Source: a virus. From it: DNA of 22,252 nt. Positions within the stretch are counted from its first letter, which is position 1; the number at the start of each line of letters is the position of its first letter. Below, piece by piece: positions 1 through 21,760 of this stretch. The notes under the pieces are model-generated. The model worked only from the letters and a program-made list of their open reading frames with translations, was not told the DNA's origin and searched no databases. The translations under genes and the position numbers were made by a program. The stretch is taken from the IMG/VR virus record IMGVR_UViG_3300027976_003597, positions 1 through 22,252 of that record; one strand, 5' to 3'.

Positions 1-1812
1 TTTACATATAGGACATGATTCAACCGGATTTGTTTTACTTTTATGAAATTGACATTCTTTATTCCAAGACAACTTACGATTTTTTTTATGCAAAACATGT
101 TCACAATAATCCTGAGATGTATGAGCTAAATTATGGCAAATAGAACAGCAGGAAAAGTCTACAGAGCAATTATGAACAGCAACACCCTCAACAATAAAAG
201 AATTATCTTTATCTACCTCAAGATTAAAAACAGGCTCCGACAATTCAATCTTTTTGATAGATTTAATTGGCACGACCATATATTTATCAGCTTTACGAAA
301 CGGTCTTTTCCTATAAACTCCCTCTACCTGCTTATGCGCAACTACATATTCATTTAAATCCTGAGATGCAGCAGAGCCAATAGAAATAGTATGATGCTCT
401 TTTTTGCCATCCTGTTTAACAGACCTTAGAGTTGAAGGAATACCTAGTCTAGCGAGAATAAATCGAAGCTGATGAGACATCTTCTCAGAACAAGTAGTTC
501 CAGATAAATTATCGTAAACTTTTTGATTTTTATTGTTCGTTATTCGACGACGTGTTCCGTCACCACTCAACCAAGCACCAATAATTTCAGCTTGAACATT
601 TTTGTTCCAATATAAAACCGATCCCGCTATTTCCTTTTGATCGCAGTACTCTCCACAGTACATAAAAAACCATTGTGCTACACTCTCATTATTAAACTTA
701 ACGACAATATTGTTTCTGTTTTTTCTATAATATACTTTGGCGGTTTTCTCGGTATATTCAAACTTGCGATTTAATCGCTCAATAACTTCGTTGGCAATTG
801 AGTTTTCAGAAATACCAAAAGTAAATTCAATTCCTTTTTTATTCCCTTTATACTTAGTGTAATTTCCTTCTGCCAAAAAATATCCAATCAATCTAGCGCT
901 GTCGATATTAGCATCATCATGAGGGATAACTCGATCTGATATGGGGAAACATACCATATCTTCTTTTTGTAGATCAGATGCCTGCTTCCAATAAAATTCA
1001 AAATCTGGTTTTACGGCAGTTTGAGCAGCAATCGTTTGATATGCCCCTGGTTTCATTCTAGGGAAAAATCGTCGAGAGGTTTTAGGAACATCTATTATAT
1101 CACCAGTTATATAACATGTATTTTGTTCTTTTAGTATTAAAAAAGGATGCTCTTTAGTTGCTTTAATAGCGACAGGATTACCCTCCGCTTTAATTTCAAA
1201 TCCTATATCATTTTCTTTATCTAAATGTCGCTGTACATTTAAAACCTCTCTTGGCTCCCCAGTATGAGAGATAACAAAATTACCAGATCGAACATCCTTA
1301 ATTGGACAATAAGTTCCATCGTTCATAAGAACTCTCATATCGCCCGTAAAACAACCCATGGATGTAGAATTTATATATCCCTCTTCAATACCACGAGCTA
1401 ACTTGGGATAAGCAACCTTATCAACTCTAGCAATAATATAAATACCGCCCTGTTTCTTATCGTACCATGAATGTACACATTCACCTCTAGCTTTTTCTAT
1501 ATCATCATTCTGATGATTACAAAAAATAGGAACCCCAATAAATGTATGAGCTGCCTTTTCTAATTCTGATCCAGAAAATAAATCACCATTATCATTGACT
1601 TCATCTTCTCTTATAGCAAAAACTTTTACAAAAAGATGTTCAGGATATTTATCAACAGCAGCTTTTAAATTGAATCCCCCAATCTCTTCCGGAGTAGACT
1701 TGTTTAAAGATGCAGTCTTAATTTGTTTTGGCATCTGAAATACATCCCAGTTTTTAGGAGTATTCAATGCACGAATATTCATTTTGGAATTTATTATAAT
1801 CTTGTCAGTCAT
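1..1812 (-). CDS. Head maturation (prohead) protease, intein-containing, partial at left edge
   Basis: The reading frame is open from an ATG at 1812 to the window edge (604 codons, no stop), so the C-terminus is missing. GAGG lies about 10 bases before the ATG. The host protein is residues 1-153 joined to 549 onward. It matches the phage head-maturation serine protease pattern: a His in a 'VPIFCNH' segment (H100), then GECVHSWYD, a β-strand stretch with GIYIIARVD, and finally STSMG with S151 as the likely nucleophile. Such proteases process scaffold and head proteins inside the prohead. After the intein the host protein continues with a Cys-rich stretch (CCSICH...YCEHV and later CPIC) that looks zinc-binding. 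A 395-residue intein interrupts it right after SMG. FNLK occurs at residues 47-50. Position downstream of the portal matches T4 gene 21 order. The protease call is by motif and context; which Ser is catalytic is inferred. Confidence 0.78.
   Translation of the reverse strand, partial: MTDKIIINSKMNIRALNTPKNWDVFQMPKQIKTASLNKSTPEEIGGFNLKAAVDKYPEHLFVKVFAIREDEVNDNGDLFSGSELEKAAHTFIGVPIFCNHQNDDIEKARGECVHSWYDKKQGGIYIIARVDKVAYPKLARGIEEGYINSTSMGCFTGDMRVLMNDGTYCPIKDVRSGNFVISHTGEPREVLNVQRHLDKENDIGFEIKAEGNPVAIKATKEHPFLILKEQNTCYITGDIIDVPKTSRRFFPRMKPGAYQTIAAQTAVKPDFEFYWKQASDLQKEDMVCFPISDRVIPHDDANIDSARLIGYFLAEGNYTKYKGNKKGIEFTFGISENSIANEVIERLNRKFEYTEKTAKVYYRKNRNNIVVKFNNESVAQWFFMYCGEYCDQKEIAGSVLYWNKNVQAEIIGAWLSGDGTRRRITNNKNQKVYDNLSGTTCSEKMSHQLRFILARLGIPSTLRSVKQDGKKEHHTISIGSAASQDLNEYVVAHKQVEGVYRKRPFRKADKYMVVPIKSIKKIELSEPVFNLEVDKDNSFIVEGVAVHNCSVDFSCCSICHNLAHTSQDYCEHVLHKKNRKLSWNKECQFHKSKTNPVESCPICK
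169..1353 (-). mobile_element. Intein with LAGLIDADG endonuclease in the protease gene
   Basis: Intein of 395 residues (host codons 154-548). It begins with Cys154 (CFTGDMRVLMNDG, block A), has a T-x-x-H block B (TKEH, T219 and H222), and ends FNLEV...SFIVEGVAVHN followed by Cys549 as the +1 extein nucleophile. All class 1 splicing residues (C1, block B T/H, His-Asn, +1 Cys) are present, so splicing should be active. Two LAGLIDADG-type helices are visible, LIGYFLAEG near residue 308 and IIGAWLSGDG near 410, which implies a homing endonuclease. Removal joins STSMG to CSVDF. Boundaries were checked codon by codon. Confidence 0.93.
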
Positions 1813-2170: not shown

Positions 2171-2203
2171 GAAGTACCCCTACGCTTGTCGTAGGGGTAC
2201 TTC
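2171..2203 (-). promoter_or_regulatory. Perfect 13-bp stem, 7-nt loop hairpin at a gene end
   Basis: GAAGTACCCCTAC and its exact reverse complement GTAGGGGTACTTC flank a 7-base loop. The hairpin contains the last codons and the TAG stop of the 169-aa gene and ends just before the start of the next gene. There is no T-tract on either side, so it is not a canonical intrinsic terminator. It could be an mRNA 3'-end stabiliser or processing signal, or it could sequester the AGGGG that would otherwise serve as ribosome-binding site for the downstream small gene. Confidence 0.7.
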
Positions 2204-2689
2204 AAGTTCATTGAGAGAAATACCAGCAGCACCAATTTTGTCAAGACGATTTGGCTCCGAAGACCCCTTAACGTGACGAGGAATTTTAATACGAGCAAGA
2301 TCATCTAAAGTATAATTATGACGATCTGATGGTTGCTTAACTCCCCACCGATCACGACAAAAACTTAATGCACTTATCATTGTCGAAAAATATTCTCCAC
2401 TAGGAGCATAGTGGTTTTTCTGTTTTGCTTTTTCTCTGGGAAGCTTTTTAATTCCTGCAAAAAATCTCTTTTGCAAAGTTTTTGTCATAGCAGGACCAGC
2501 GACCACAAAATAATCAGAGTTAGTAGTATAGTCGTGACCTGACCAACGGTAATAAGCCCCCTGCCCCAGTTGTTCAGTGAATCTCTTCTTTAATTTGGCA
2601 GATTTTTCAGGATATGCTTCTTTCCAATTTATCCCACGATCTCGAATACGACGAGGACCGGCCTCCTTATATTGATGTAAATTAAACAT
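2180..2689 (-). CDS. Hypothetical protein (169 aa), FNL motif at N-terminus
   Basis: Unrecognised basic protein immediately downstream of the portal gene (15-base gap), with GAGGG upstream of its ATG. It begins MFNL, sharing the FNL motif seen in several other proteins of this region. The body is rich in Lys, Arg and aromatics (INWKEAYPEKSAKLKKRF, GAYYRWSGHDYTT, YFVVAGPAMTKTLQKRFF). A compact soluble α/β protein is plausible. The C-terminal part (SDRHNYTLDDLARIKIPRHV, then GISLNELEVPL) ends within a strong hairpin. No membrane segment or catalytic signature is apparent. Position between portal and protease is where T4-like phages keep small prohead core genes, but no sequence likeness to those was recognised. 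Confidence 0.8.
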   Translation of the reverse strand: MFNLHQYKEAGPRRIRDRGINWKEAYPEKSAKLKKRFTEQLGQGAYYRWSGHDYTTNSDYFVVAGPAMTKTLQKRFFAGIKKLPREKAKQKNHYAPSGEYFSTMISALSFCRDRWGVKQPSDRHNYTLDDLARIKIPRHVKGSSEPNRLDKIGAAGISLNELEVPLRQA

Positions 2690-2704: not shown

Positions 2705-5700
2705 TTAATAATAAATATCAAAAACCCAACCGATATCCCCTGTCATCTCTGTCTTGGTAAATTCAAAATATTCTCTATCTCCAACATGAGCTACAAGAAA
2801 ATCATTTACCGAAGCAAACTTTACCATTTCTTCGTCTTGCTCCGCTTTTTTCTTATAATTCTTAGAAGCTTCAAGTATATTCTGCTGTATAATATCTCTT
2901 ACTACATTAGCCTGTTCGTTGATTGCATCCTCTTTGAATCTTAAAATACGCCAACCAACTCTAGATAGCTTTTGATCTCGAATGTTATCTCTTTCCTTAA
3001 GATCAGGCCGCTCATGCCACATCTTCCCGTCAGCTTCAACTCCAACACCAATTTTAGGATACGCAAAATCCAACGAGAATGCTTGCTGTTCAGTAGGTAA
3101 CTTTATTTGATACTGAAAAAATGCAGTATGCGGAGTATCAATCTGCTGAATAGTACGCAAAAGTCTTGATTCTAGCTTGGTTAATCTTTTCTGCTCCATA
3201 ACTAATGGCTGCTGTTTCTCGGAAAATGATTTACCCTTACCTTTCTTGTCTATTCTCATCCCACCAGATGCCGCCATAGGAGCTCCTCCTAGAGCGCCGC
3301 CCATTCCTCCTGGAGCGCCGCCCATTCCACCAGGAGCGCCAGGAGCGCCACCCGGAGCCCCTGGCACCATATCTCCCATTCCCATTGTTCCAGGATTAGC
3401 TCCAGCGCCAGCACCGCCGCCGCCCATCGGCGGCATACCTCCCATACCTCCCATACCTCCACCTCCTGCACCTGGACCTCCCATAGCCCCACCAGGAGCA
3501 ACATTCACACTCTCTTGACGAATCTCTTCAATCTCATAATCATAATCCAAATCTAATTCTTCGCAAATAGTACGACCTGAAACTAGTCCCTTATCTTGAG
3601 CCTGTAACAATATTTGAACTCGTGCCGTATTGTCTCGCAGCTTCATGTCATTCCATTTGATCGTAGGATACCGCCAAACTGTATGACCAAGTTCTTTAGT
3701 CTTTTCTTCATCGATAAATCCCTGCATCTGAGCTAACGGCTTAAATACATATTCCTCGATCCAATCGGATAACTCATTCCGCCATGATTCAAGACGACGA
3801 AGTAAAATTTCAACACCAACCTGCGCCGAATTACCCTGAATGGTAATCTTCCCGTTTCTACGAGTTACAAAATATCCAGTTGAAGTCGATACGCAATACA
3901 CTTTACCGTCATATTTTTGTTTTGATAGATTGTGCTTTCGTATAATAGGGAAAGAGCCGTTTGAGAGACGCCCCTTAGATATATGAATTCTCCAAATTCC
4001 ATTTTCCTTACTAAAGCCTCCTTGTTTTTTCTTCTCATCCCAATACAGTCTACTAGCATAACCACAAGAAAAAACAATATGCTGAAAATCATCAGCTAAT
4101 TCTTTTGAAGATGTTGTATATAAATAAGATTCAGTACTAGATGATCTTTTGTGTCCATCACCCTCAAGCATACTTTTTATTAATATTTCTAAATATTCAG
4201 AAGGCAAAGACTTAATCCAATTTGGCAAATATTTTCGCTTCGCTCCTTTACCAAAATTGTTATTCAAAAATTCTACTAGATCTTTATTATGTAAATCAAA
4301 AACATAAGAATCAGGCTCTCTATATTTTCTTTCAGTAAATTTATAGCCAAACTCATTTAATGAAGATTTTATAGAATTGAAAACCTTTTCTTTTTTGCTG
4401 GATTGATAAATGTGAATTCTATTTTTAGCAGAACATCCTTCGCTAATATAATACCCTAACACTTTCAAAAATATTTTCAAATCTACAATCCGACTTCCTA
4501 AATCAATTTCTAAATCATTATCACCTTCTATGACAGGATACTTAATTTTTCCTTGAACAAAATCACAGACACTTCTAGTCCGCATACCATATTTAAGATT
4601 TTCAGCAAATACGTCTCGCCACTCTTGTTTATCCCATCTAGTAAGCATCTTGTGATTATTTGTAACACAAATATCTAGTCTTTTCCCATTAATGCTTACC
4701 ATTTCTCCAGAAAAATCAAATTCAAAAATATCATGTGGCTGTTCATATTTACAAATATCTGTGTTTTTATCAAATACACAAACTTCATCTTCTTCGTATA
4801 TAAGGTCTTTAAAAAACTTAAATCCACTATCTGTAAGAACTTCTGTTCGTTCATCATGGCAACTATAACCCGCCATTTCCCCGTTCAAAATGGCTTGATT
4901 AAGCATAACGCCGTCTAGAATCTCTTTACCGATTTGTTCCATTTCAGCACTAATATTATGAATCTTACCTGTGTTACCCTGAATAGCAATGCGCCCATTT
5001 CGTTCGGTAACAAAAAATCCAGTAGATGTTTCAAAACACCATACCTTACCCTTATAGCGAAGGGGCTTAATGTGACTATCTTTAACTCTAGAAAATCTCC
5101 CCTTTCCACTTTCACTCAAACTACAGTTAATAACATATTGCTTGTCTTCTTTTTTGAATCTACTTTTTGTAGGAGAATAACCAGCCTTAAACATAATCTC
5201 TAACAAATCATTTGCTAATTGCTCACTATTAGTTCCTATTTGTACGTACTCGGTATTTTTGTGCTCTTGATAGGCACCATCACCATTACAAAAGGCTCGA
5301 ATAAAAATACGCAATTTATCTACTGATAAATTCTTAATAAAATTCGGGACTCTCTTTGTAAAAGAATTTTCTCCAAACCAATCTTTAATTTGTTTAGCAA
5401 CATCTTTTTTAAGAATATTCCAGGTAGTTACTCTTCCTTCATATTCATATTTATGAAACTCAAAACCTGATGCATCCATTGTTATATCAATATCATCGCA
5501 ATAGTCACTGTTTTTTATAGGACATTGAGCAATTGAAACAATATAACGACGTTTATCTTCTTTGTACTCCGTATGTCCCTCAGATACATAATATCCAGCA
5601 AAAGACATAAATTCATCAATAGGAACCTGATATCCCGCAACGTCTACATGCTCTAAACTCTCAGTTGATAAATATTCAGCAATAGCAGTAACATATCTAT

Positions 5701-8254
5701 CGCATTCATTTATTTTAGCAAAATCTCGTGCTTCTAACGTAAAATGACTATCTCTATTCCTACTAAACCCCAACATTGTATGGTTAGGAGTAACAGCCAT
5801 ATCCAATTTGTTTCCTTCAAAACCAACAAGGAACCCGTCATAATTGTATTCATGAAAACCTAATGGTTTTTCATATCTAGACTGTCCGGTATGAGGATCA
5901 TGTACTAATATTTCATATTCAGGTTTAATCTGCTTTTTACCATTAACATCCTCATATATAATGTCAGTATAATTCATAATCCCCTTATTAGTAAGAACAT
6001 GTGTATCCTTATCGTAGCAAGCGCCATACCACTCGTACTCAAAAGCGTGGTGCGTCACTATTGTAAGATTTGGATCATTAGCAACGGCAGCCAATTGAGA
6101 CTGGACATCGGCGATATCATCTGCTGTAGCGGGACGATCTTTATCTCCAATTTTTACAACGCGAACAGGTAGAATCAATCGCTCGGCAACTAACCAATTC
6201 GCTGTCAATAGTTTAGTTTTATATGCAAGAACGGTAAACAGTCTACGAAGCATAGATGTGCCATAGATTGTATACGAGCTTGCATTATGTTTAATATGAC
6301 TTACGCTATGATTAGCAAGAACGATTGGGCGTCCAAGTGCAATTAGTTCTATAATTTTAGACGGAATTCTATCATATATTGCTTTTGGTCTTTTCTTTTG
6401 AACTAAACTTCTAAGTTCTTCGTCGGGAGTTAATGTAATAACAGGTTCACCGGCTAGAACGCTTTGTTGAACATCGATAAAATCAGGATTTAAGATTACT
6501 ATTCTTCTGAACTTTCCGCCGGGGTGATTGCAAGGAGAGCCATCAGACATAAATCCGCTACCATGGCATTCGGGGCAATTAATTTCTAAAAACGGATAAA
6601 CATCACCAAGCAAAAAATATTCATGACTGATTGACTTCAGCCATTTATTCATTTCAATATCTTTACAAAACTCTTCAAAAAATGTACGGATTTTGGAATC
6701 ATGACATTCCAATTTGAAACCGTTCATTGGGAACCCTGCGTAAAAATCTACAGCAGCGGCAACTTTAGGCTCGTTCTCGTAAAAGAATCTGCACTGAAAA
6801 ACGCTAATATTATTAGCTGTAAGGGTATATGACGGAGGAAGTCTTAGATCATATACGAAGATATCTTCTAAAGAACTTTCATTCTTTCTAACTCTTGATA
6901 CTACATTATTTTTCCAAAAAAATCTAAAATGTGATCCAGCTTTTCGAGGACGAACATTTTTTGATTTACCGGGCACATATGCTGATATTTTATCACATTC
7001 AGATGATGGAATATTTAAAATATAACGAAACTTATTATCTGTTCTAAACGTTTTATTTGATTTACTAATTGGTTGCTTATTTGATCTAGCTAAAATTCCG
7101 CATCTAAAACACATCAAAAGCAATTGATTTGATAGATGTGGAGAGTAAGTAGTTATTTCATACACATCATTTTGTTTGTTATAGCATCCATCTGATTGAA
7201 TATACGCACCAATAACGTGTTTTTGAAGTTGAGGATCAAGATAAAAAACTTCTTCAGTAAACTTCTTTTCTGATCCTTTACCAACAACTACCCTGCTAGC
7301 AAATTCATAAGCAGCAGCGATAGATGTTCGTTTCTCTTTAATCGTAGAAACTGCTAATAAATTACAACTAGACCCGAAAGAAGAAAAAACATCATCAACT
7401 GAATCCATTACAAAATTTATTTCATTATCAGCAGCACACACTCTTACGCTTTTACTGCTCTCAGAAACAGAACCATCTGCCGCTAGATGTCCTGCAAACC
7501 TCGCTTTTGACACAGTATCTATAATTCCATTTTTAATTTCAGTAGGAAATGGAATTAAAACATAATCACCCACTTCTATATCTTCAGCATTTAATTCAGA
7601 CACTTTATAGTCTACATCTTTAAATTTACTACAATTATTTCTTTCGCATGTAGGAGAACATACTCCTGAAATACAATTTTTACTACGATGATATTTACAG
7701 CGAATATCTTCCTTTTTGATAACTCTGCACTTATGATCGTGAGTAACAACAAGAGGTTCAGGTAATCCCGTAGAATCTATTGTATTAATTATCTTATGAA
7801 CTTTTCTTTTAGAAATTTTATTCGGAGAACGCATATCTCCAAATCCGTCCTGAACAACAACCATCCCTTCGATATCAAAAACTCCCTCAATATTTCCATA
7901 GACATCTTCATATATTGTCTTTATATCCTTAATAGAACCGTCGTAAAGTATCAAATTACATGGACTTACAAAACTCCATTGATACATTTCTCTTCTCTTA
8001 GAAGCGATCTGCCAATTTTGAGGAGTATGTAATGGAGAGAAAAATGCAGGTTGAGTAAAGATCGCATTTGCAGCCGAACCCATCATTTGTGCTGATTTAG
8101 TTATTGAATGAGTAAATGTGCCGGTATTTGCATAGCTACGAAACGCTGGTCCCTGCTGACCGTTTGTTGTTCCTTGAGAATGACCGCCAGATGCAGCCAC
8201 TAAGCGGCGCTTATTCTGCGGACTATCATCTGGTAAATTAAACTTTAATGGCAT
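2705..8254 (-). CDS. Portal protein with three inteins and a C-terminal DUF559-like nuclease domain
   Basis: This 1849-codon frame encodes a 767-aa protein after removal of three inteins (389, 349 and 344 aa). GGGAG precedes the ATG by 7 bases. The spliced protein reads as a portal, the dodecameric head-tail connector through which TerL packages DNA. Typical stretches are FFYENEPKVAAAVDFYAGFPM (from residue 490), SHEYFLLGDVYPFLEINC, RRIVILNPDFIDV, YGTSMLRRLFTVLAYK, EMEQIGKEILDGVMLNQAILN and VWRYPTIKWNDMK. A C-x2-C-x11-C-x-H cluster (C560, C563, C575, H577) inside the body looks zinc-binding. The tail (1587-1665) is a Gly/Met/Pro/Ala-rich linker leading to a DUF559/Vsr-like domain (about 1690-1795) and a short C-terminal extension. 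KFNL lies at residues 4-7. The frame is intact throughout. Confidence 0.92.
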   Translation of the reverse strand: MPLKFNLPDDSPQNKRRLVAASGGHSQGTTNGQQGPAFRSYANTGTFTHSITKSAQMMGSAANAIFTQPAFFSPLHTPQNWQIASKRREMYQWSFVSPCNLILYDGSIKDIKTIYEDVYGNIEGVFDIEGMVVVQDGFGDMRSPNKISKRKVHKIINTIDSTGLPEPLVVTHDHKCRVIKKEDIRCKYHRSKNCISGVCSPTCERNNCSKFKDVDYKVSELNAEDIEVGDYVLIPFPTEIKNGIIDTVSKARFAGHLAADGSVSESSKSVRVCAADNEINFVMDSVDDVFSSFGSSCNLLAVSTIKEKRTSIAAAYEFASRVVVGKGSEKKFTEEVFYLDPQLQKHVIGAYIQSDGCYNKQNDVYEITTYSPHLSNQLLLMCFRCGILARSNKQPISKSNKTFRTDNKFRYILNIPSSECDKISAYVPGKSKNVRPRKAGSHFRFFWKNNVVSRVRKNESSLEDIFVYDLRLPPSYTLTANNISVFQCRFFYENEPKVAAAVDFYAGFPMNGFKLECHDSKIRTFFEEFCKDIEMNKWLKSISHEYFLLGDVYPFLEINCPECHGSGFMSDGSPCNHPGGKFRRIVILNPDFIDVQQSVLAGEPVITLTPDEELRSLVQKKRPKAIYDRIPSKIIELIALGRPIVLANHSVSHIKHNASSYTIYGTSMLRRLFTVLAYKTKLLTANWLVAERLILPVRVVKIGDKDRPATADDIADVQSQLAAVANDPNLTIVTHHAFEYEWYGACYDKDTHVLTNKGIMNYTDIIYEDVNGKKQIKPEYEILVHDPHTGQSRYEKPLGFHEYNYDGFLVGFEGNKLDMAVTPNHTMLGFSRNRDSHFTLEARDFAKINECDRYVTAIAEYLSTESLEHVDVAGYQVPIDEFMSFAGYYVSEGHTEYKEDKRRYIVSIAQCPIKNSDYCDDIDITMDASGFEFHKYEYEGRVTTWNILKKDVAKQIKDWFGENSFTKRVPNFIKNLSVDKLRIFIRAFCNGDGAYQEHKNTEYVQIGTNSEQLANDLLEIMFKAGYSPTKSRFKKEDKQYVINCSLSESGKGRFSRVKDSHIKPLRYKGKVWCFETSTGFFVTERNGRIAIQGNTGKIHNISAEMEQIGKEILDGVMLNQAILNGEMAGYSCHDERTEVLTDSGFKFFKDLIYEEDEVCVFDKNTDICKYEQPHDIFEFDFSGEMVSINGKRLDICVTNNHKMLTRWDKQEWRDVFAENLKYGMRTRSVCDFVQGKIKYPVIEGDNDLEIDLGSRIVDLKIFLKVLGYYISEGCSAKNRIHIYQSSKKEKVFNSIKSSLNEFGYKFTERKYREPDSYVFDLHNKDLVEFLNNNFGKGAKRKYLPNWIKSLPSEYLEILIKSMLEGDGHKRSSSTESYLYTTSSKELADDFQHIVFSCGYASRLYWDEKKKQGGFSKENGIWRIHISKGRLSNGSFPIIRKHNLSKQKYDGKVYCVSTSTGYFVTRRNGKITIQGNSAQVGVEILLRRLESWRNELSDWIEEYVFKPLAQMQGFIDEEKTKELGHTVWRYPTIKWNDMKLRDNTARVQILLQAQDKGLVSGRTICEELDLDYDYEIEEIRQESVNVAPGGAMGGPGAGGGGMGGMGGMPPMGGGGAGAGANPGTMGMGDMVPGAPGGAPGAPGGMGGAPGGMGGALGGAPMAASGGMRIDKKGKGKSFSEKQQPLVMEQKRLTKLESRLLRTIQQIDTPHTAFFQYQIKLPTEQQAFSLDFAYPKIGVGVEADGKMWHERPDLKERDNIRDQKLSRVGWRILRFKEDAINEQANVVRDIIQQNILEASKNYKKKAEQDEEMVKFASVNDFLVAHVGDREYFEFTKTEMTGDIGWVFDIYY
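2870..3187 (-). other. DUF559/Vsr-like PD-(D/E)xK nuclease domain fused to the portal C-terminus
   Basis: Portal residues about 1690-1795 carry the pattern of DUF559, a Vsr-like restriction-endonuclease fold. SLDFAYP gives the first acidic residue (D1729). It is followed by GVGVEADGKMWHERP (E1740, D1742, K1744, and the W-H pair typical of the family), then an R-D-x2-R-D helix (1755-1760) and VGWRILRFKEDAI, where G-W-R-x-L-R-F is diagnostic. Key residues are retained, so catalysis is possible but not shown. Members of this family are usually free-standing; the fusion to a portal is the unusual point. Confidence 0.82.
3260..3496 (-). repeat. Gly/Met/Pro/Ala-rich low-complexity linker repeats in portal
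   Basis: Codons 1587-1665 of the portal encode imperfect repeats of GGM, GGAP and GAPGG units. They come from DNA repeats such as GGAGCGCCGCCCATTCC, which makes this the most GC-rich stretch of the window. It separates the portal body from the nuclease-like domain and is probably a flexible tether. Confidence 0.85.
3830..4861 (-). mobile_element. Portal intein 3 (344 aa, LAGLIDADG)
   Basis: Host codons 1132-1475. It starts at Cys1132 (CHDERTEVLTDSG, block A), has block B TNNH (T1198, H1201), and ends KVYCVSTSTGYFVTRRNGKI then TIQGN, followed by Ser1476 as +1 nucleophile. The penultimate residue is Gly instead of the usual His. Endonuclease motifs are VLGYYISEG (1265-1273) and LIKSMLEGDG (1358-1367). 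Excision joins AGYS to SAQVGVE. Its C-terminal blocks closely resemble those of intein 2. Confidence 0.93.
4973..6019 (-). mobile_element. Portal intein 2 (349 aa, LAGLIDADG)
   Basis: Host codons 746-1094. It starts at Cys746 (CYDKDTHVLTNKG), has block B TPNH (T822, H825), and ends KVWCFETSTGFFVTERNGRI then AIQGN, followed by Thr1095 as +1 residue. Endonuclease motifs are FAGYYVSEG (885-893) and FIRAFCNGDG (984-993). Excision joins EWYGA to TGKIHNIS. The next intein begins after only 37 extein residues (4862-4972). Confidence 0.93.
6794..7960 (-). mobile_element. Portal intein 1 (389 aa, LAGLIDADG, Cys-rich insert, C-terminal Gln)
   Basis: Host codons 99-487. It starts at Cys99 (CNLILYDGSIKDIKTI) and has block B THDH (T171, H174). 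Endonuclease motifs are FAGHLAADG (253-261) and VIGAYIQSDG (347-356). Block F is FVYDLRLPPSYTLTANNISVFQ, followed by Cys488. The last residue is Gln in place of Asn and the penultimate is Phe in place of His, both rarer variants that remain compatible with splicing in some inteins. A cluster C186, H189, C194, C199, C203, C208 sits between block B and the endonuclease and looks metal-binding. Excision joins FVSP to CRFFYENEP. Confidence 0.88.
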
Positions 8255-15387: not shown

Positions 15388-15747
15388 TTATGAACCAAAA
15401 AAAATAGAGTGACTACCATTTTTGTCTCTCTGTACATCTATTTTAGCTCCTTCTTTTATATTGTGTTTTTTAAAAAATCCTGCATTAGTCTCAATCGCAG
15501 CTATACAATTTGGAGGGCTAGCAATAGCTCTACGAGACAATGTATCAATCTTAGATATTTTCACTATTTTTTCATCATCGGAAACGAAAGCAATATCAAG
15601 AGGTATAAAAGTATTCTCTCCCCAAAACCGCAAAGTTTGAGGCTTGTTAAATATAAACAGCATTCCCTCATCTTCTGGCAGATCATGACGAAACATTAAA
15701 CCCTGTTCTTGTTTAGACGGGGAATCTGCCACTTCTACCTTAAGCAT
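15388..15747 (-). CDS. DUF192 family protein (119 aa)
   Basis: This is a full-length DUF192 domain. The family pattern runs through the whole protein: VEVADSPSKQEQGLMFR (4-20), LPEDEGMLFIF (23-33), FWGENTFIPLDIAFV (41-55), KIVKISKID, then AAIETNAGFFKKHNIKEGAKI (83-103). DUF192 proteins are small β-rich proteins of unknown biochemical role, in bacteria often exported with a signal peptide. This copy starts directly at the domain and has no signal peptide, so it would act in the cytoplasm or be packaged. GAGGTGA lies about 6 bases before the ATG, which overlaps the upstream gene's stop by 8 bases, so the two are co-translated. Its presence in a terminase-portal cluster suggests a virion or assembly task, not established. 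Confidence 0.88.
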   Translation of the reverse strand: MLKVEVADSPSKQEQGLMFRHDLPEDEGMLFIFNKPQTLRFWGENTFIPLDIAFVSDDEKIVKISKIDTLSRRAIASPPNCIAAIETNAGFFKKHNIKEGAKIDVQRDKNGSHSIFFGS

Positions 15748-19864: not shown

Positions 19865-21760
19865 TCATTTTCGATAGAAAGGCATTGAGTCCCTTTTTTC
19901 TAGTTCATTAGATACATTTTGTCCTGTTCCGTACCCTATTGGACCTGACATACTCTGCCAAAGCCTTTCGTTTGATTGTGGAGATATTCCAGTGTTAACT
20001 AGACGAGATGCTGGTAACTTATGCATATGGCTAGAAACAGCCGTATATGCAGCACCAGCAAGTGCGTCACATAAATCATCAGTATGAACCTCACCGGCAG
20101 ATGGAGCAAACACTTTATATCCAATCTCTGTAAATCTACGCTGTAAATGAATCATCTCATTCTTTAATAGTTTATGAGGTGGAATCCATATTCTATCAGA
20201 TACAATTAAATTGTATAACTCATCATAAATCTGAGTTTTGTAATTCTTGGTAAATCTTGTTTCCTTAGCAGCGATACCGTGTTTTCGGAGCTTTAAAATA
20301 CTAGACTGAGAGTTCCAGTGATCATACGTTACGAGTCCAAAATGAAAACGATGCTTCATTTGAATCATATACTCATCTATTTCTGATACTTTAATTGGCT
20401 GATCTGGCATGGGTTGCCAATATTTAATATGGTCTACAATAACTCGGAAATCAGTCTTTTTGGTATCCCTGTTTAGGAACAATTCCCTATGAACAACAAC
20501 CAAAGCATAATTATGACTAGTTGATGCCGGATCTAAATGGGCAAAATAAATTCGTCCAGGTTCTCCGATAGCCTTGATTTGCAATACATGATTAAAACAT
20601 TTTTCAACCGCATCTCTAGGAAACATATTCTCACCTGCGGTACCAGAGAATTGTGCCCCAAACTCCATAGCAAATTCTTCCTCCGACATTGCTGATTCTT
20701 CTTCTCTTAAGCTTTCCTCTGTATGATTTGGATTCACCACCCACGTTGGAAGCCGACAAATCAATGATGCTTTCTTTTCATGTCCTTGCGAATAAAGTTT
20801 ATAAAACAATCCCTCTTCACCGCGAGGAGTAGAAATGGCAACAATTTTGGCATCATACACTGGTTTTGTTACAGGATGCCCTTCGTCGTCTAAAATTAAA
20901 TTACCATCCTCATCCATCTGTTCTTCTTGGCGAACAAAACTTCGCATAGAAGGACGAAGAGATTGATAAATAACATCACCTGAGCCTGAGCCGCCAGACT
21001 GCTTAAACATAGCAACTTCATCAAGCAACAGAACAAAACAACTTTTACCTCTTAATGTATCAGAGTTACTATGACCAACTTCTATAACAACACTACCAGG
21101 AGTAAAAGTAAGTTTTTTCGCCTTTCTTTTTTTGTTCTCTGCCTTATCCGCTGCGGTCATTAATCTCATAGAAGCTTTTTGAAATCCATCAGGAATAAAT
21201 TTGTCAGCAAAATACGGACTAGATAACATCTTCTCTTTAATTTGGTCAAACGCCACAGTAGCCTGATCTTGAGAATTAGCTACAGTCAAAATTACAATAT
21301 CACCACCTGGAGCAACGCTATAGTAAGCATGAGGGTTTCCGCCAGGAGATTCGATCAATTTCAAAGCTTCGTACAAAGCTATAATAGAACCTAAAAAATC
21401 TTTACCTGAACGACGCCCCCAAACCAAAACCAATTCTTTGAATAAATTCCCAGAATTCCATTTCGATATTAGATCACCTTTATCTGCCGTATTTAATCCC
21501 AATTTCTCACAAAAATTAATATCATCTTGGGTTAGTTCTAAATGTTCATTACCTATTGACCCTCTATAAAACACCTTCAAAATCAATTCCTGAACAGGAT
21601 ATAATTTCAAAGATGGATTTCTATCAGCAAATCCCAAATATGCCTCATTATATACAAATGTAAAAATATCAGGGATATAACCTGAAGAAGTGCCCATAAG
21701 AGCAATATCATCTTTAATAACTTGTACTAGATCGCTAACTGTCTGTCCTTTTTTTGCCAT
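19865..21760 (-). CDS. terL: Terminase large subunit (TerL)
   Basis: The 631-aa packaging motor, complete and intein-free. The N-terminal ATPase has Walker A GRRSGKD (115-121), Walker B LLLDE (244-248, with D247 and catalytic E248) and the coupling motif STPRG (310-314). The C-terminal RNase H-like nuclease has acidic residues in IYFAHLDP (D410), LVTYDHW (D480) and EVHTDDLCDAL (D561), as in phage terminases that cut concatemeric DNA. It docks on the portal and pumps DNA into the prohead using ATP. A charged insert (EDGNLILDDEGH, about 284-295) lies between Walker B and the coupling motif. The ATG lies 2 bases after the preceding gene, with a weak CGAG upstream, so coupling is likely. The portal lies 13 genes downstream instead of adjacent. 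Confidence 0.97.
   Translation of the reverse strand: MAKKGQTVSDLVQVIKDDIALMGTSSGYIPDIFTFVYNEAYLGFADRNPSLKLYPVQELILKVFYRGSIGNEHLELTQDDINFCEKLGLNTADKGDLISKWNSGNLFKELVLVWGRRSGKDFLGSIIALYEALKLIESPGGNPHAYYSVAPGGDIVILTVANSQDQATVAFDQIKEKMLSSPYFADKFIPDGFQKASMRLMTAADKAENKKRKAKKLTFTPGSVVIEVGHSNSDTLRGKSCFVLLLDEVAMFKQSGGSGSGDVIYQSLRPSMRSFVRQEEQMDEDGNLILDDEGHPVTKPVYDAKIVAISTPRGEEGLFYKLYSQGHEKKASLICRLPTWVVNPNHTEESLREEESAMSEEEFAMEFGAQFSGTAGENMFPRDAVEKCFNHVLQIKAIGEPGRIYFAHLDPASTSHNYALVVVHRELFLNRDTKKTDFRVIVDHIKYWQPMPDQPIKVSEIDEYMIQMKHRFHFGLVTYDHWNSQSSILKLRKHGIAAKETRFTKNYKTQIYDELYNLIVSDRIWIPPHKLLKNEMIHLQRRFTEIGYKVFAPSAGEVHTDDLCDALAGAAYTAVSSHMHKLPASRLVNTGISPQSNERLWQSMSGPIGYGTGQNVSNELEKRDSMPFYRK

Follow-up and report, generated by a model that had tools for sequence, protein, structure and literature searches.

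What is a nuclease domain doing at the end of a phage portal protein? Portals are among the most constrained of phage proteins, and the nucleases that assist packaging are normally separate proteins. In the window analyzed here (the whole stretch of 22,252 nucleotides, positions 1 to 22,252 of the IMG/VR virus record IMGVR_UViG_3300027976_003597), the portal gene continues through a Gly-rich tether into a domain which a preliminary description, made from the sequence, had called a DUF559/Vsr-like nuclease that might trim packaged ends, degrade host or rival DNA at ejection, or clamp DNA. A comparison of this domain with its relatives in other viral contigs and with known systems leads us to favor, tentatively and at slightly less than an even chance, a homing-type nuclease that was domesticated and turned into a part of the packaging machine.

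Architecture of the portal gene

The intein-free sequence of the gene product from residue 488 on matches the portal family PHROG 16240 (E 6e-47), and matches to LAGLIDADG_3 are found within the same open reading frame. Intein boundaries were taken from the sequence and from comparison with relatives; since the residue numbering used throughout counts all three inteins, the predicted spliced portal has 767 residues. The parts of the gene are as follows:

2705..8254, minus strand: portal protein gene encoding 1849 aa, interrupted by three inteins and carrying the nuclease domain in its C-terminal part
6794..7960, minus strand: intein 1, aa 99-487, uninterrupted in intein-free relatives
4973..6019, minus strand: intein 2, aa 746-1094, uninterrupted in intein-free relatives
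3830..4861, minus strand: intein 3, aa 1132-1475, uninterrupted in intein-free relatives
3221..3499, minus strand: Gly/Met/Pro/Ala-rich tether, aa 1586-1678 (from the sequence)
3230..3259, minus strand: basic motif MRIDKKGKGK at the end of the tether (from the sequence)
2840..3184, minus strand: DUF559/Vsr-like nuclease domain, aa 1691-1805 (Pfam profile, AlphaFold model and structure matches)
2708..2839, minus strand: C-terminal tail past the nuclease, aa 1806-1849, of low conservation, with a predicted beta hairpin and including VKFAS

The basic motif between tether and nuclease is conserved, reading roughly [VI][YT]K[KR]GK.PK in relatives. A frameshift, or a separate gene misread as a fusion, was rejected, the frame being single and open here as well as in 73 contigs. 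The span originally given for the fused region, 2870-3496, covers the tether and most of the nuclease core. The residue numbers attached to it include the inteins, and a further invariant glutamate, E1695, is located upstream of the residues named there.

Identity and fold of the nuclease domain

The DUF559 profile (PF04480) is matched at 35.3 bits by the whole portal protein (residues 1724-1791) and at 39.3 bits by the isolated domain, with a curated cut-off of 20.6 bits, and all seven members of nuclease set A1 match it as well. Together with the single open reading frame, this bears out the initial identification of a DUF559/Vsr-like domain fused to the portal behind a Gly-rich tether. With a profile made from a distant sister clade only, the window domain scores 92.8 bits; a chance match to a nuclease family was rejected, the best of 1000 shuffles reaching 7.3 bits. 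The MTES_1575 REase profile (PF18741, curated cut-off 38.2 bits) gave 34.6 bits for the whole protein and 38.7 bits for the isolated domain.

An AlphaFold model of the domain (pLDDT 84, pTM 0.78) was compared with solved structures. The best fold match is the DUF559 protein NGO0050 (3hrl; Z 13.0, rmsd 1.6 over 92 residues), and the model also matches the homing endonuclease I-Bth0305I (3r3p; Z 11.9, rmsd 2.6 over 97) and the Vsr mismatch endonuclease (1cw0, also solved as 1vsr; Z 10.1, rmsd 3.0 over 115). A sequence profile independently recovers 3hrl and I-Bth0305I (the latter with E 1.3e-5). As modeled, the core of the domain is a restriction-endonuclease-like (PD-(D/E)xK) fold, in agreement with the structure that had been expected. 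The likeness to Vsr is one of fold, whereas the Pfam Vsr profile (PF03852) was not matched by the window domain and was reached by one of the seven set members weakly (E 0.001). The DUF559 family, which offers the closest likeness by both profile and fold, is not known there on a phage portal, unlike the DUF559 domain of this lineage, which is tethered to one.

Conservation of the active site

All residues named in the preliminary description are present (D1729, E1740-A-D1742-G-K1744, W1746-H1747, R1759-D1760 and G-W-R-I-L-R-F). Because the wider nuclease-alignment search was seeded with the active-site motif [IV]E[AV]DGxxWH, residue conservation was assessed instead on a portal-based set of 58 distinct nuclease sequences. 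Alignment of these relatives places the principal acidic and histidine positions in the window as follows:

3170..3172, minus strand: E1695, invariant acidic residue in the first helix
3068..3070, minus strand: D1729, invariant
3035..3037, minus strand: E1740, invariant
3029..3031, minus strand: D1742, invariant
3014..3016, minus strand: H1747, invariant

In this set, these five residues and D1756 are essentially invariant, as are R1759, D1760, G1767, W1768 and R1772, the main exception being one sequence (L122) interrupted by an intein. The assignment of K1744 as the catalytic lysine of a PD-(D/E)xK site did not hold, since relatives carry K, A, Q, N or E at this position. I-Bth0305I, a member of the EDxHD family that shares the fold, differs in having N and A at the positions of D1742 and H1747, and no equivalent of its long-site DNA-binding region is seen in the portal nuclease. 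As a separate observation, both L122 (5677-10152) and the truncated L009 (8516-12562) carry an intein immediately after E1740, inside the ExDG motif of the nuclease.

Distribution of the fusion

A search with the nuclease sequence yielded one locus (L002), and a search with the portal core seven. Portal, tether and nuclease form one open reading frame in L002, L003 and L005-L008; L009 terminates within the nuclease and L004 upstream of it. The wider nuclease-alignment search yielded 80 loci, almost all of them portal fusions. As a nuclease-seeded search is biased by its motif, it was repeated with the portal core alone, the nuclease being ignored: the nuclease is in frame in all 73 viral contigs with a complete portal gene, and in the remaining 7 contigs the portal gene runs off the contig end. 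The survey of portal homologues that had been suggested at the outset thus finds the fusion widespread with its catalytic-type residues retained; neither a structure unlike the expected fold nor a consistent loss of these residues was encountered. The largest contigs of the fusion lineage, which may be incomplete as IMG/VR records, measure 494, 370, 358, 347, 333, 316 and 301 kb, which makes at least some members of the lineage jumbo phages. In the contigs examined whole, DUF559 occurs once per contig and always on the portal (13/13).

Among cultured or named phages, homologous portals that lack the nuclease are found in Bacillus phage G (gp14, 34% identity, with a Gly/Pro-rich tail), LR745208, Tunturi_5, Rctr197k, Vibrio phage D69 and Mycobacterium phage Tonenili. 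The portal-nuclease fusion was not found in any record of the phage collection searched, a nuclease search of cultured phages returned two Meiothermus phages only, and no relatives of the portal were found in the bacterial and archaeal genomes searched. A portal with DUF559 is likewise not described in the open-access literature searched, a body of text that leaves most subscription journals outside its coverage. The earlier statement that such a domain is not a usual portal part is therefore correct for the cultured phages searched but not for its own lineage, where it is fixed. The nuclease is a fixed portal part of a whole lineage of large uncultivated phages and was seen in none of the portals of the cultured phages searched.

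On the portal tree, where the outgroup branches are very long, the fusion trait requires one or two changes, and the fusion may have a single origin. The portals of Rctr197k (L173 4638-7022) and Tonenili (L012 3641-6280) have a Gly/Pro-rich stretch followed by different C-terminal regions, as if the portal tail were a general attachment point. In Meiothermus phage MMP7 (L175 2890-3336), DUF559 is a stand-alone gene located a few genes from the terminase and adjoining a DNA adenine methylase.

Selection and probable origin

Among relatives, the nuclease has a median dN/dS of 0.109, compared with 0.078 in the portal core and 0.32 in the tether, and pairwise portal and nuclease distances are closely correlated (Mantel r 0.93, with none of 2000 permutations as high). 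The nuclease domain is under purifying selection, and it is maintained and co-inherited with the portal.

Non-portal relatives recovered in the nuclease search include zinc-finger nucleases (L079, L080). In L090-L092, a DUF559 nuclease was read from the sequence within the intein of a MuF-like minor head protein, and it is apparently the homing enzyme of that intein. The fold match to I-Bth0305I, taken together with the non-portal relatives, suggests a homing-type ancestor, and the portal nuclease was probably derived from a homing-type endonuclease. How homing nucleases may be domesticated into packaging factors that process ends has been discussed, with the HK97 HNH protein as an example (PMC10448857).

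Location on the portal

To place the domain, we rely on an intein-free homologue (L031) that was folded whole. Its portal core matches solved portals with Z 16-20 and aligns with T4 gp20 over gp20 residues 70-516, a match reaching almost to the C-terminus, and its tether is predicted to be disordered (pLDDT < 50 at residues 500-609). The stem, wing and crown of the T4 portal are located inside the capsid (PMC9958956). From this alignment and from the position of the T4 crown, the tether of the window portal would start at the crown and face the head lumen, as judged by the monomer model of a relative.

A possible role in packaging

The reading that we tentatively favor, and for which we infer the activity, stoichiometry, lumenal location, origin and packaging role, can be outlined as follows. 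The domain is predicted to be a DNA nuclease of the DUF559/Vsr-like group of restriction-endonuclease folds that is able to cleave with the help of metal ions; the portal of a large-phage lineage would have acquired it and kept it, domesticated, as a permanent part. Should this portal form a 12-mer, as known portals do, it would hold twelve nucleases, each hanging by a long flexible tether from the ring's crown, on the side of the head lumen. Their likeliest job would be DNA processing at packaging: at the portal, aberrant DNA, whether branched, damaged or badly terminated, would be nicked or cut.

Processing of DNA during packaging is favored by the existence of known nucleases at or near the packaging machine. 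In T4, endonuclease VII (gp49) is bound to the portal protein gp20 (PMC3012670, PMC9958956), which likewise brings a nuclease to the portal during packaging; unlike the portal nuclease, it is a separate protein of another family that is attached non-covalently and resolves branches. The head-completion nuclease gp4 of T4 (PMC7824862) and the packaging nuclease of HK97, an HNH protein (PMC10448857), also serve head filling or packaging, but they are separate proteins of other families and are located off the portal. The role of the portal nuclease would be comparable to that of these three proteins, while its ancestry would not.

The window also encodes the large terminase subunit:

19865..21760, minus strand: large terminase subunit, with motifs GRRSGKD, LLLDE, HLDPAST, YDHWNS and DDLCDALAGA

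A sequence search of this terminase against solved structures gave no match; by inspection, its ATPase and nuclease motifs appear intact. The portal nuclease would thus be an addition to the terminase nuclease, and its role as a substitute for it was rejected.

Several considerations stand against a packaging role. A lumenal tether would place the nuclease beyond the point at which branched DNA stalls, making it a poor fit to the comparison with T4 endonuclease VII, and a nuclease enclosed with the packaged genome would need to leave it uncut, for which we found no explanation. Moreover, there are phages, phage G among them, that lack the domain and yet package very large genomes. Compensation for lost resolvases does not explain the nuclease, since RusA accompanies it in some of the 13 contigs (two matches above cut-off and two further weak ones). 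Searches for RuvC, endonuclease VII, VRR_NUC, Hjc and RecU gave no match in these contigs, which may be incomplete, as the RecA-like positive control was recovered from 9 of the 13. Replacement of a Holliday-junction resolvase is accordingly unsupported as a general rule.

A covalent and fixed portal-nuclease fusion across an entire lineage, with contigs of up to 494 kb, points to DNA cleavage at the head pore being important for these phages. It provides a candidate case of a homing-type nuclease converted to a virion part, and it poses the question of how a packaged genome survives next to a nuclease.

Alternative explanations

The main rival to a packaging role is delivery at ejection: as portal fusions, twelve nucleases would be loaded into the head, freed when the head protease cuts the tether, and ejected with the genome to attack host or competing DNA. 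Two neighboring genes bear on this possibility:

1..1812, minus strand: head maturation protease-like gene with one intein, interrupted by the window edge
2180..2689, minus strand: 169-aa gene immediately after the portal gene, without known family

Delivery would fit a position in the lumen, as the portal model implies, and a head protease encoded in the vicinity, and MuF toxins with nuclease domains, encoded beside portal genes, have been proposed as a precedent (PMC5576092). Like the portal nuclease, MuF polymorphic toxins place nuclease domains on phage head-module proteins; they differ in being built on MuF proteins, in swapping domains between types and in having immunity genes, whereas the portal carries one fixed type of C-terminal domain. 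A conserved neighbor resembling an immunity gene was not found in both clades. The 169-aa gene is a conserved portal neighbor in the Gly-tether clade, but no homologue of it was found in the second clade, and it was rejected as an obligate immunity partner of the nuclease. A further point in favor is the motif [KR]-x-A-[QS], possibly a head-protease site, which recurs more often than in shuffles at the N-termini of portals and, within one large clade, also in the tether, although this enrichment is overstated, the sequences being related; the motif is absent in the tether of the window portal and of most close relatives. Occurrences of this motif were noted at residues 53-56 and 1812-1815 of the window portal, in the tethers of L038-L087 and in other head proteins. 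On balance, we regard delivery as unlikely.

Restriction at the time of packaging, in which the nuclease would cut entering DNA that lacks the modification of the phage and thereby exclude host or satellite DNA, appears quite improbable. The fold matches include PvuRts1I and AbaSI, both modification-dependent nucleases, and strong N6/N4 DNA methyltransferase matches are present in 6 of the 13 contigs, with up to six in one of them. However, several large contigs, among them ones of 300 and 347 kb, gave no match to methyltransferases of that family, and two control phages without the nuclease domain also have them. Very improbable, by our estimate, is the broader notion of the portal as a DNA checkpoint, with nucleases in the head inspecting incoming DNA and destroying what is unmodified or damaged; if true, the packaging pore would itself contain a restriction system.

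It is also highly doubtful that the domain is a selfish homing endonuclease that was joined in frame to the portal gene's end and spreads this gene by cutting alleles that lack the domain. The fold shared with I-Bth0305I, the intein-rich portal gene and the non-portal phage relatives that resemble homing enzymes (one of them within the intein of a MuF-like protein) would fit such an origin. With the nuclease in all 73 complete portals, though, no empty allele is left to invade, and the mobility signs of EDxHD homing endonucleases (sporadic presence, empty alleles) are missing. Inheritance of the domain follows the portal (r 0.93), unlike that of sporadic homing elements, and it would be unusual for such an element to travel on a virion protein whose end domain is fixed.

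Least likely among the roles originally proposed, and hardly probable in itself, is a structural or DNA-binding clamp whose nuclease fold would serve only to hold DNA or to pack the portal and would not cleave: restriction-endonuclease folds without activity occur elsewhere and a basic motif precedes the domain, but the catalytic-type residues E1695, D1729, E1740, D1742, H1747 and D1756 are strictly conserved across divergent sequences under strong purifying selection.

Other features of the head module

Inteins are dense in this one head module, with three in the portal gene and one in the nearby head protease gene; homologues of the latter gene are found in 150 loci. A DUF192 gene lies inside the module (15388-15747), with homologues in 64 related loci. 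In addition, a short motif, FNL[KPHN], is repeated near the start of, or within, several head-module proteins:

starts 2180, 2705, 8745, 12413 and 19086, and gene 1-1812, all minus strand: genes bearing FNL[KPHN]
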